A stretch of DNA of 64,000 nt from Pseudarthrobacter sp. NamB4. Its GTDB lineage: Bacteria; Actinomycetota; Actinomycetes; Actinomycetales; Micrococcaceae. Both the position numbers and the translations under genes were made by a program. Where the stretch lies: positions 1 through 64,000 of the forward strand of contig NZ_VAHM01000014.1 of assembly GCF_005796185.1 (NCBI RefSeq). Direction: 5' to 3'. Under the pieces are notes generated by a model. The model saw nothing but the letters and a program-made list of their open reading frames with translations. It was not told the DNA's origin and ran no database searches. Numbering within the stretch: position 1 is the stretch's first letter; each line of letters begins with the position of its first letter. Below are positions 308-10,737 of the stretch, piece after piece.

Positions 308-1876
308 ATGCAGACCCCTCCCCAGGTCGGCGTTGACGCGATCCAGGACCCGACAGTGAAGCCGGTTGTGCCTGGCCACCAGTCCGCCAGTGTTGAAGAT
401 ATCTGTGCATCAGCGAGCGCAGCATCAGGCCAAGACATCAGCCCCACGCTTTACAACGCGGACCTTGCCCCCACCAAACGTGCCGGCCGCAGCTGGTCGG
501 GCTACAGCATCTTCACCCTCTGGGCCAACGATGTCCACAGCCTCGGCAACTATGCCTTCGCCATCGGATTGTTCGCCCTCGGACTCGGGGGCTGGCAGAT
601 CCTGCTCGCGCTGGGTATCGGGGCTGCCCTGCTTTTCGGCCTCCTGAACCTTTCCGGTTTCATGGGCGTCAAGACCGGTGTTCCCTTCCCGGTGATGAGC
701 CGGATCAGCTTCGGCATTCGCGGCGCCCAAATTGCCAGCCTGCTCCGCGGCGCCGTCGCCATCGCCTGGTTCGGCATCCAGACCTACCTGGCCTCCGTTG
801 TCTTCCGCGTCATGCTCGTGGCAATGTTCCCGGCACTCGGCGGGCTGGACAAGGACTCCATCCTCGGACTCTCCACTCTCGGCTGGATCGCATTCGTTAT
901 TCTCTGGGTTGTACAGCTGGTGATCGTCAGCTTCGGTATGGAGATGATCCGCAAGTACGAGGCGTTCGCCGGACCCGTCATCCTGGCCACCATGGCGGCC
1001 ATCGCCGTCTGGATCTTCGTCGAGGCAGGCGGCTCAATCGCCTGGTCCTCAAACAATGCCCTTGAAGGTCCCGAAATGTGGCTCACCATCTTCGCCGGCG
1101 GAGCTCTCTGGGTCTCGATCTACGGCACCTTTGTCCTGAACTTCTGCGACTTCACCCGCTCCGCTGTCTCGAAGAAGGCAGTGGTCCGGGGCAACTTCTG
1201 GGGCATCCCCATCAACATGCTCGTCTTCGGGGCCATCGTCGTCGTCATGGCAGGCGGCCAGTTCAAGATCAACGGCACCATCATTGAAAGCCCCTCGGAC
1301 ATCGTCCAAACCATCCCCAACACGTTGTTCCTGGTCCTCGCATGCCTGGCCCTGCTGATCCTTACCATCGCGGTGAACCTCATGGCCAACTTCGTGGCCC
1401 CCGTCTACGCCCTGACCAACCTGCTCCCCAAGCACCTGAACTTCCGCAGGGCGGCCATCGCCAGCGCCGTTATCGGACTGGTCATCCTGCCGTGGAACCT
1501 CTACAACAACCCCTTGGTCATCGTGTACTTCCTCGGCGGCCTCGGTGCCCTGCTGGGCCCGCTGTTCGGCGTCGTAATGGCTGACTACTGGCTGATCCGC
1601 CGCGGCAAGGTCAACGTCCCTGAGCTGTACACCGCCTCCCCGGAAGGTGCCTACCATTACAGGAACGGCGTCAACCCCAGGGCAATCATTGCCATGGTGC
1701 CGGCAGCCGTCCTGGCGCTCCTCATTGCGTTTGTCCCCGCACTGGCCCCGGCAGCACCCTTCGCCTGGTTCTTCGCGGCCGGCATCGCGGCCGTGGTGTA
1801 CTTCTTCGTCGCCGACCGCTCGCAGCGCCTCGAAGACCGCGACGGCGAGACCATCGCCGTCGCCAGCACCCACTAA
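308..1876 (+). CDS. NCS1 family nucleobase/hydantoin permease
   Basis: Secondary transporter of the nucleobase:cation symporter-1 family (allantoin, cytosine, uracil, hydantoin), acting in the cytoplasmic membrane. About twelve hydrophobic segments are visible. The N-terminal part has the family's typical NDVHSLGNYAFAIGL and GVPFPVMSRISFG stretches, and the end of the core reads PLFGVVMADYWLIRRG. Length (522 aa) is normal. The ATG at 308 is preferred over an in-frame TTG at 296. A racemase gene follows after 9 bases and then an SDR, which suggests uptake of hydantoins or allantoin-type compounds, as with the Mhp1 transporter and its neighbouring hydantoin racemase. The substrate is inferred. 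Confidence 0.9.
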   Translation: MQTPPQVGVDAIQDPTVKPVVPGHQSASVEDICASASAASGQDISPTLYNADLAPTKRAGRSWSGYSIFTLWANDVHSLGNYAFAIGLFALGLGGWQILLALGIGAALLFGLLNLSGFMGVKTGVPFPVMSRISFGIRGAQIASLLRGAVAIAWFGIQTYLASVVFRVMLVAMFPALGGLDKDSILGLSTLGWIAFVILWVVQLVIVSFGMEMIRKYEAFAGPVILATMAAIAVWIFVEAGGSIAWSSNNALEGPEMWLTIFAGGALWVSIYGTFVLNFCDFTRSAVSKKAVVRGNFWGIPINMLVFGAIVVVMAGGQFKINGTIIESPSDIVQTIPNTLFLVLACLALLILTIAVNLMANFVAPVYALTNLLPKHLNFRRAAIASAVIGLVILPWNLYNNPLVIVYFLGGLGALLGPLFGVVMADYWLIRRGKVNVPELYTASPEGAYHYRNGVNPRAIIAMVPAAVLALLIAFVPALAPAAPFAWFFAAGIAAVVYFFVADRSQRLEDRDGETIAVASTH

Positions 1877-8918: not shown

Positions 8919-10181
8919 TTAGCTGGCTTTGCTAGCGGCGGCGCGCTTTTGGGCCAGTTTTATTTCCAGGACAGCGTCCAGTGCCTGCTGGACCCGATCA
9001 GCTGCTCCTGCCGCACTGAAGGCTTTCTGCGCTTCCTCCAGGTGTACCAGGGCTTCCTCGGGTTCACCCGCGGCCTTGAGGGATTTGCCCAGCAGCAGCG
9101 AGACCTCCCCTGCCGTGTGCTTGGCCAGTGACGCCCGCTCCGCATGGATCTCCCGGAGTTTCTCGACGGCGGCAACAATGTCCCCGGTCAGATACAGCCA
9201 CCGTGCGCGGATGAAGGCAACCTCCAGCTGGTCCGACTTGTTGCCGCCCACGATGGACAGCGCCAGCTCGGCCCGCTCGATCGACGCAAGGGTCTCTGGT
9301 TCAACGATTCCCGACGACAGCCGCACGGCTGCGGAGGCTTTGTTGAACCGCGCCCACAGTTCGATGTCGTTGGCGGGGGAGAGCAGCCGGGCCGCGCGCT
9401 CGTGGTGCTTGATGCCCTCCTGGTAGTCGTGCCGCATGAAAGCCACGTTGCCGATGACCCAAGCCACTTCGCCTGCAAGCTGGGACATGGAATGCTCGTC
9501 CACGTGGTCGATCATGGCCTTGCAATACTTCCAGGCCTCGTCCAGCCGGCCGCTTTCAGCCAAAGCGCCGATCAGGGCACGGTGTGCGCCGATGATCAGC
9601 GTGGAGCCCTTCGGCAGCTGCGAGCAGAGCTTCACCGCCTCCATGGCGTGGTCCACCGCCACGCTTAGCTGGCCCTGGCCCTGGGCGATGCCGGCGAGCA
9701 TCTGGCGGGCACGGACCGCCAGGCCGGCGGATTCCTGGGCCATGGGGTGCTCCAGCAGATGCTGCATAATGCGCTGGCATTCCTGCCAGTTGCCCTGCTT
9801 GATCAGGCACTCCGCCTGCATATAGGTCATGTTCCACCAGGCGCTGGTGTTCCTGCCTTCCAACGCTATCCGGGCTGCGGTGGCGGCGTGGCTTGCCGCC
9901 AGCGGATAGTCCCGAAGGTCCCAGGCCTGGCGCGCGTATAAACCCGCCAGGACGTACTCGGCGTCACTGACCGATATGGGCTGACTCCACGCCTCCAGCG
10001 CTTTGGGCGCCAGTTCCAGCCTCCGTGCCAGTTCCTCAATGACCTCGGCCGTAGGTTCCCTGCGGCCGGTTTCCAGCAATGAGATATAGCTCGGGGAATA
10101 CAGGTCCTTTCCCAGTTCCGCCTGTGTCAGCCCCCGTTCGAGACGCTCCGCGCGGAGCTTCTCCCCGAATCCGTTGCCCAC
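8919..10181 (-). CDS. XRE-family transcriptional regulator with TPR-like repeats
   Basis: 420-aa protein. An N-terminal XRE helix-turn-helix (residues ~5-60: FGEKLRAERLERGLTQAELG, then SPSYISLLETGRREPT) is followed by about 340 residues of helical repeats resembling tetratricopeptide units. This is the architecture of RRNPP-type peptide receptors such as PlcR, Rap/NprR and PrgX. The GTG at 10181 is chosen because GAGGAGGAAAT stands at ideal distance in front of it; the open frame extends 110 codons further upstream but crosses the intergenic promoter region. It is divergent, 133 bases away, from a gene for an exported peptide with a duplicated octapeptide. A role as receptor for that peptide is inference. 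A general DNA-binding role is secure. Confidence 0.88.
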   Translation of the reverse strand: MGNGFGEKLRAERLERGLTQAELGKDLYSPSYISLLETGRREPTAEVIEELARRLELAPKALEAWSQPISVSDAEYVLAGLYARQAWDLRDYPLAASHAATAARIALEGRNTSAWWNMTYMQAECLIKQGNWQECQRIMQHLLEHPMAQESAGLAVRARQMLAGIAQGQGQLSVAVDHAMEAVKLCSQLPKGSTLIIGAHRALIGALAESGRLDEAWKYCKAMIDHVDEHSMSQLAGEVAWVIGNVAFMRHDYQEGIKHHERAARLLSPANDIELWARFNKASAAVRLSSGIVEPETLASIERAELALSIVGGNKSDQLEVAFIRARWLYLTGDIVAAVEKLREIHAERASLAKHTAGEVSLLLGKSLKAAGEPEEALVHLEEAQKAFSAAGAADRVQQALDAVLEIKLAQKRAAASKAS

Positions 10182-10221
10182 GGCATTTCCTCCTCTTCCG
10201 GACAGTCTTCGTGCCAAATGC

Positions 10222-10261
10222 TTGACAGTCCCTGTGGAAAACATTTTACAATGTATGTCAA
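10222..10261. promoter_or_regulatory. Divergent promoter/operator region between XRE-TPR regulator and peptide gene
   Basis: For the peptide gene, TTGACA (10222-10227) and TACAAT (10247-10252), 19 bases apart, make a plausible promoter. Over the -10 box lies the palindrome ACATT-TTAC-AATGT (10241-10254). TTGACA and its mirror TGTCAA (10256-10261) frame the whole region. On the other strand TAAAAT (10248-10243) could be the -10 box of the regulator gene, so the two promoters overlap face to face. This suits joint control by the regulator, but binding is inferred. Confidence 0.55.
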
Positions 10262-10314
10262 CAAGGACAGTGCTGGCTTTGTAACGAATCCGACTCGTAT
10301 TGAGGAACATAACT

Positions 10315-10542
10315 ATGTTGAAGAAGATCGCCACTGCGGCTGCCCTGGCTGGTGCCCTCGCTTTTTCTGCTGCGGCTCCGGCCGTTCTGTCCGCCGGTTC
10401 CCTCGGGGACTCCACCAGTATTTCGGCAAGGGTCGGGAACTGGCCCGACCCGATGTCCGGCAAGACCAAGGACAGCAAGAAGACCGAGACCACGGACACC
10501 ACGTACACCACCTATGTTGGCAACTGGCCTGACCCGATGTAA
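10315..10542 (+). CDS. Exported small peptide precursor with duplicated VGNWPDPM motif (candidate pheromone)
   Basis: 75-aa precursor. Residues 1-27 form a typical Sec signal peptide: MLKKI, then an alanine/leucine-rich core, then a small-residue cleavage region around VLSA. The remaining ~48 residues are hydrophilic (Ser/Thr/Lys/Asp). The octapeptide VGNWPDPM occurs at residues 40-47 and again as the last eight residues (68-75). The two copies differ at three synonymous codon positions but encode identical residues. GAGGAA stands seven bases ahead of the ATG at 10315, and a strong terminator follows. The gene is divergent from an XRE-TPR regulator. No known family is recognised. The layout resembles precursors of Phr/PapR-type signals, and function as a pheromone is inference. 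Confidence 0.85.
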   Translation: MLKKIATAAALAGALAFSAAAPAVLSAGSLGDSTSISARVGNWPDPMSGKTKDSKKTETTDTTYTTYVGNWPDPM

Positions 10543-10570
10543 ACAGCTTCCTCACACAATGGAGGCGAGG

Positions 10571-10605
10571 ATGGCCCCGGAGCGAAAGCTCCGGGGCCAT
10601 CCGTT
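10571..10605 (+). terminator. Rho-independent terminator of the peptide gene
   Basis: A perfect 13-bp stem, ATGGCCCCGGAGC (10571-10583) with its complement (10588-10600), is closed by a GAAA tetraloop and followed by CCGTTT. It begins 28 bases after the peptide stop codon, so the peptide gene forms a single-gene transcription unit. Confidence 0.85.

Positions 10606-10660: not shown

Positions 10661-10737
<77 letters not shown>

Follow-up and report, generated by a model that had tools for sequence, protein, structure and literature searches.

The window, by which we mean the whole 64,000-nucleotide stretch of Pseudarthrobacter sp. NamB4 DNA that was analysed, holds a pair of divergent genes whose start codons lie 133 nt apart (Table 1). 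One gene encodes a regulator with an XRE helix-turn-helix (HTH) and TPR-like repeats, and the other a small precursor carrying the octapeptide VGNWPDPM twice. The pair has purC to one side, and tRNA-Pro and genes for ABC exporters to the opposite side; purD is also among the neighbours. An earlier note, made from this DNA alone, had described a divergent XRE regulator with TPR-like repeats 133 bases from a 75-aa precursor with VGNWPDPM at residues 40-47 and 68-75, and both genes were found where it placed them, the regulator being confirmed by its Pfam matches as well. A codon comparison of the two copies also bore out the three synonymous differences it had counted (GTC/GTT, GGG/GGC, CCC/CCT). 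The window genome has a single precursor and a single regulator, and a whole-genome motif search found no other DNA encoding GNWPDP. The call of a signal peptide is a by-eye judgement: two Lys residues, a hydrophobic segment and A-x-A were recognised at the N-terminus of all precursors of the genus.

Table 1. Features of the receptor-precursor locus in the window, and loci of related genomes with octapeptide mini-ORFs
Feature	Position	Strand	Remarks
Receptor/regulator gene, 420 aa	8919..10181	-	GTG start at 10181, end at 8919; XRE HTH and TPR
Precursor promoter	10222..10252	+	TTGACA 10222-10227, 19-nt spacer, TACAAT 10247-10252; at 158/158 genus loci
Candidate operator TTTACA-N5-TGTCAA, 17 bp	10245..10261		Imperfect inverted repeat over the -10 box
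Precursor gene, 75 aa	10315..10542	+	ATG at 10315, stop 10540-10542
Precursor layout			Signal-peptide-like N-terminus (MLKKIATAAALAGALAFSAAAPAVLSA, then G), spacer, octapeptide, Lys/Thr-rich linker, octapeptide, stop
Octapeptide copy 1, VGNWPDPM, residues 40-47	10432..10455	+	Boundary from within-precursor agreement
Octapeptide copy 2, VGNWPDPM, residues 68-75	10516..10539	+	Extreme C-terminus, abutting the stop
Candidate terminator, 15-bp G+C-rich hairpin past the precursor gene	10569..10602	+	z -7.7; weak U-tract
tRNA-Pro (CGG), landmark	10661..10737	-	Adjoins the pair in 7/7 genus loci checked and in L114 (other genus)
Mini-ORF locus behind FDPGSSPD protein, relatives	L105:2732-2828	-	Example with coordinates
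Further mini-ORF loci I			L151, L156, L157, L159, L162, L163, L145, L155, L170, L146, L148
Further mini-ORF loci II			L169, L149, L150, L154, L269, L271, L285, L277, L279, L298

In the receptor, the XRE HTH (residues ~5-64) is followed by TPR-like helical pairs (~71 to ~391) and a C-terminal helix. In Pfam, HTH_31 was matched at E 3e-12 and TPR_12 at E 8e-10 over four stretches, with HTH_3 and TPR_14/2/6 also above the cut-off. An AlphaFold2 model built from a 31-sequence alignment had a mean pLDDT of 90.9 and contained eight helical pairs. By sequence profile, the best natural match in the RRNPP family was PlcR (2qfc; E 2e-11, residues 4-210), and some designed PPR proteins outscored it through their repeats, so part of the similarity to PlcR is generic repeat similarity. 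Structural alignment of the TPR domain gave Z 23-24 with peptide-bound Rap and Z 21 with NprR:NprX, while that with AimR (Z 20-21) spanned receptor residues 2-413. TPR superhelices of other function matched equally well or better (MalT at Z 26, APC/C, LGN, APPBP2), eukaryotic TPR scaffolds as much as MalT, so the fold is supportive only and unspecific for RRNPP. The TPR fold by itself was rejected as an identifier of the family because its top structural matches were APPBP2, MalT and APC/C.

Membership was instead judged by the published RRNPP signature (PMC10075063). The receptor length falls inside the range of 250-500 aa, the HTH is as required of the DNA-binding subfamilies (PlcR, NprR, Rgg, ComR, PrgX, AimR), and the precursor, at 75 aa and 133 nt from the receptor, lies within the limits of 10-100 aa and -60 to 400 bp; precursor size and spacing do so likewise at all genus loci. 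The peptide-binding type of TPR that the signature calls for is supported by the Pfam matches, the model and the alignments with peptide-bound Rap, NprR and AimR, and the profile match to PlcR gives a sequence relationship to a known RRNPP receptor. For Sec/SPI export of the precursor, the signal-peptide-like N-termini of the genus precursors are the observation at hand. Judged from sequence and model, the locus agrees with the signature in every respect that can be checked.

Every one of the 150 genus genomes sampled had the regulator, at 80-97% identity and in a few cases as a partial match, and the named relatives that carry it belong to Pseudarthrobacter, Arthrobacter and Paenarthrobacter. 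It was found in 17 of 32 family genera sampled, a count that takes in paralogues without the HTH. At order level it is nearly confined to the family Micrococcaceae, and the sets searched held no sequence-level orthologue outside Micrococcales. No match occurred among 50,697 phage and 72,556 plasmid records; given this and the conserved synteny with tRNA-Pro, a mobile element or phage system was rejected. The conserved tRNA-Pro adjacency indicates that the pair occupies a core chromosomal site.

Upstream sequence was read at 198 regulator loci, some strains being present in both collections. A divergent precursor stood beside the receptor in all 157 genus loci that could be scored by motif search; at the one other genus locus, L074, the precursor is degenerate, with one damaged copy and the end SGNWPYPV. 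The genus precursors carry one to four copies of [VITS]GNWPDP[MAV], with 1, 2, 3 and 4 copies in 5, 69, 28 and 21 of the 123 distinct precursors, respectively, and 117 of these end exactly on the motif. Thus the peptide gene's adjacency to orthologous regulators and the conservation of its C-terminus, on both of which the earlier note had made its reading depend, held across the genus. Chance or artefact as the origin of the repeat was ruled out by the retention of the motif in 123 distinct precursors.

In other genera, where receptors are 40-77% identical, the motif drifts yet stays repeated: IGNWPDPM x5, VGNWPDP[S/A/T/F] x4, FVGNWPDAV x4-5, PGNWPD x3, PGIWPD x3, TGNWPN x4, VWIWPD x2, VGEWPH x2, VGDWPH x6-8 and VGNWPDRF x5. 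No recognisable peptide gene was found beside homologues L120, L121, L125-L132, L136, L137, L143 and L144. Among these, the receptors L121, L126, L129-L132 and L144, all of one other genus, have lost both the neighbouring precursor and the promoter-operator, and both elements are retained in the sister species represented by L117 and L119. A class-wide search outside the family returned only single GNWPDP matches at about the rate of a reversed control pattern, and these were taken as chance.

The repeats show very clearly where the mature pheromone would start and end. For 279 pairs of copies from the same precursor, agreement was compared with that expected from pooled composition. Directly ahead of GNWPDP, the residue (I, V, T, S) was the same in 98% of pairs where 45% was expected (z 18.8); directly behind it, the residue (M, A, V) was the same in 95% where 76% was expected (z 10.2). 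One residue further N-terminal, at position -2, agreement fell to chance level (28% against 34% expected). The unit is thus the octamer XGNWPDPX, whose C-terminal boundary is marked by the fact that most copies end the protein. The octapeptide was common to 253 of 276 copy pairs and its 24 nt were identical in only 14, with codon agreement near the pooled expectation; a peptide that is shared while its DNA seldom is points to selection on the peptide. Gene conversion as the source of identical repeats was rejected, as codons differ at about the pooled expectation and the flanks are not homogenised. A mature peptide of six to eight residues had been proposed, and the upper end of that range is favoured. 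The copies of a precursor share their first residue (V/I/T/S), which also follows receptor residue 167, and this makes the whole octamer the most likely mature form and disfavours the hexamer and heptamer.

Within the genus, receptor and peptide residues changed together, by both branch and state counts. A receptor tree was built for 121 distinct pairs (184 variable columns), and peptide type changes on 13 of its branches, which make up 17% of tree length. All changes at three receptor residues fell on these branches: 6/6 at residue 167 (p 2.8e-5), 5/5 at 132 (p 1.6e-4) and 4/4 at 289 (p 9e-4), where p is uncorrected for the 184 columns and 167 and 132 survive Bonferroni correction. Residue 167 is His with I-type peptides (62/62) and Gln with V-, T- or S-type peptides (59/59), Trp occurs at residue 132 almost solely together with V-type (46/47) while I and T types go with Leu there, and residue 289 is Gln with S-type (4/4). 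Independent switches of peptide type are few: in a tree built without these columns, all five independent supported pairs went the same way (two-sided p 0.0625). Part of the covariation could also be produced by a recombination tract that spans the precursor and the receptor gene's 5' half; the columns between the covarying sites show no such tract pattern. Any bearing of the covariation on binding of the mature peptide is indirect. In the model, residues 167 and 289 each end the first helix of a TPR-like pair, 289 in a later pair than 167, and 132 begins a second helix; the three would line the peptide groove. His167 is paired with V in L112, from another genus, so the specificity code is local to the genus. 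Together with these three residues, the natural I/V/T/S and M/A/V variants offer a specificity code that is open to testing by synthetic peptides and point mutants.

A generic consensus scan of the window found no promoter or terminator. Comparison of the genus loci revealed a conserved element consisting of TTGACA, 17-19 nt, TTTACAAT, 3 nt and TGTCAA, and its presence at 158/158 loci supports the claim that the peptide gene has its own promoter. The companion claim of a strong terminator stood in part: the hairpin is there, and the U-tract is poor. In other genera, 19 loci have a precursor and the element was found at 13 of them, versus 2 of the 21 that have none, and L122, counted among these two, holds a VGEWPH precursor that was found by hand. 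A genome scan placed the candidate operator at full match only once in the window genome, at the precursor promoter. The scan yielded no regulon: sites with one mismatch occurred at control level and a second full match was lacking. Likewise, no operator was found at orphan surface-protein loci. Since the candidate operator lies over the -10 box and is genome-unique at full match, feedback of the regulator on the precursor gene is likely.

Additional GNWPDP-containing mini-ORFs, located away from the receptor, were found in about one third of the sampled genus genomes. They are 15-88 aa long and have a good Shine-Dalgarno site and no signal peptide. Of those read, 25 lie 76-91 nt past a secreted Pro/Ala-rich protein ending in FDPGSSPD, and the mini-ORFs in this position contain one to four [VIT]GNWPDP[MVAL] octapeptides. 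Of 15 genomes, 13 have the same first residue in the mini-ORF octapeptide and in their main precursor. The 76-91 nt that separate the surface-protein gene from the mini-ORF form a predicted three-way junction in which 8 of 17 pairs covary, far above slid controls, and no Rfam match was found for this RNA. Its closing helix runs from the region of the upstream stop codon (GACTGA or GACTAG) to the Shine-Dalgarno site, which suggests translational coupling between the two ORFs. The junction also precedes other secreted proteins and surface-protein operons that have no peptide, and it is thus a separate element. The window genome has a weak junction candidate (L329, C52:98581-98674, minus strand) before a secreted Ala/Ser-rich protein beginning MSSNLRRGMLGTLFAGGLLALG. 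Octapeptide tails of other kinds, with no FDPGSSPD protein, occur at L106 (near 1605-1621, minus strand), L107, L152 and L160: there is an 11-codon ORF, MNRIGNWPDPM followed by a stop, that diverges from a gene for a histidine kinase, and there are ORFs ending in IGNWPDPM that directly precede a DnaJ-like (DUF1992-type) gene.

The comparative evidence for the pair is unusually strong, and the locus is very probably a peptide quorum-sensing pair working like the RRNPP systems of Firmicutes. Export, processing, import and binding are steps that we infer. Sec would export the precursor, and extracellular cleavage would release VGNWPDPM, two copies per precursor. An oligopeptide permease would re-import the octapeptide, which would then dock in the TPR-domain groove of the XRE-TPR regulator. 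Binding would alter the action of the HTH at the 17-bp operator over the precursor -10 box, resulting in feedback on the signal gene and probably effects on further targets too. The window genome encodes eight oligopeptide-binding proteins of the SBP_bac_5 type, none of them linked to the system.

The same ligand and receptor could instead report an intracellular or envelope state of the single cell, such as Sec export capacity or surface-protein synthesis, rather than population density. The leaderless mini-ORFs of relatives would then supply the ligand directly in the cytoplasm, and their 25 loci behind a secreted protein, as well as their match to the main precursor in first residue, fit this explanation. 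We consider such cell-autonomous sensing unlikely, since the window genome has no mini-ORF and the main precursor is, by eye, signal-peptide-like everywhere. A combination of the two, with the octapeptide as a currency shared inside and outside the cell, is a tentative idea that we rate somewhat higher and still doubt: the dedicated locus would yield an exported pheromone, the mini-ORFs of relatives would yield a receptor-matched octapeptide inside the cell, and one TPR regulator would integrate density with surface-operon expression.

Explanations in which the precursor is no signal at all fare worse. It could be a secreted effector or antimicrobial, multi-core and possibly RiPP-like, with the neighbouring protein merely its transcriptional regulator. 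RiPP precursors too can have multi-copy cores with variable linkers, and there was a very weak HvfA-type match at the N-terminus (E 0.037, far below the cut-off), which is due to the signal peptide. Such a role is highly improbable given that the genes beside the precursor (purD, purC, tRNA-Pro, ABC exporters) include no RiPP modification enzyme and none for modification, export or immunity, that TPR residues of the receptor covary with the peptide, and that the near-invariant GNWPDP core is unlike arms-race peptides. Alternatively, the precursor could be a small structural protein of the cell surface, its repeats having a role in the wall or in adhesion; a predicted secretion, the repeats and the Lys/Thr-rich linker would suit this, and the mini-ORFs of relatives do adjoin surface-protein genes. 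This we regard as scarcely credible, because 117/123 precursors have one repeat placed precisely at the C-terminal end, the linker varies freely in length and sequence, and the stretch over which copies are homogenised is eight residues, no more and no fewer, and changes along with the regulator next door.

RRNPP signalling has been described from Firmicutes, their phages and plasmids, and the known signals of the phylum Actinobacteria are small molecules. To our knowledge, peptide signalling of this kind is undescribed in Actinobacteria; neither the motif nor an actinobacterial RRNPP system was found in the open-access journal papers searched. The large survey behind the signature was confined to genomes of Firmicutes and viruses (PMC10075063), and this explains the absence of an earlier report. 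RRNPP logic that is apparently universal in a large soil actinobacterial genus would open the phylum to the study of peptide quorum sensing.

PlcR-PapR and NprR-NprX of Bacillus resemble the pair in having a cytoplasmic HTH and TPR receptor, a small precursor encoded next to it that ends in the peptide and is exported in Bacillus and putatively so here, and similar sizes and spacing. The present pair differs from them in its actinobacterial host, divergent genes, longer receptor (420 aa), obligatory octapeptide repeats, G-N-W-P-D-P core and chromosomal location in synteny with tRNA-Pro. The AimR-AimP arbitrium system of Bacillus phages also combines an HTH and TPR-like receptor, which aligns structurally over the full length, with a small precursor that is exported, as is predicted here, whereas here the pair is a core gene set of a genus and not on a phage. 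Precursors of the yeast alpha-factor type likewise contain several identical pheromone copies separated by spacers and are exported, as the present precursor putatively is, but the proteins are unrelated and the yeast receptor is a membrane GPCR. In Bacillus, Rap-Phr shares the TPR receptor and its fold; Rap lacks an HTH and repeats are occasional, in contrast to the HTH and the at least two copies in 118/123 precursors found here. Some genes for Phr and NprX are described as having the autoinducer duplicated within the gene (PMC5199041), so repetition itself is not new; what is new here is the near-universality of the repeats and the phylum. Many genomes of the genus, the window genome not among them, also encode a paralogue of the TPR part of the receptor that has no XRE HTH and is ~45% identical over residues 62-401 (for example, L140:935-1975 and G059:C1:190334-191353), which may act in a Rap-like way, as a partner or by competing for the peptide.
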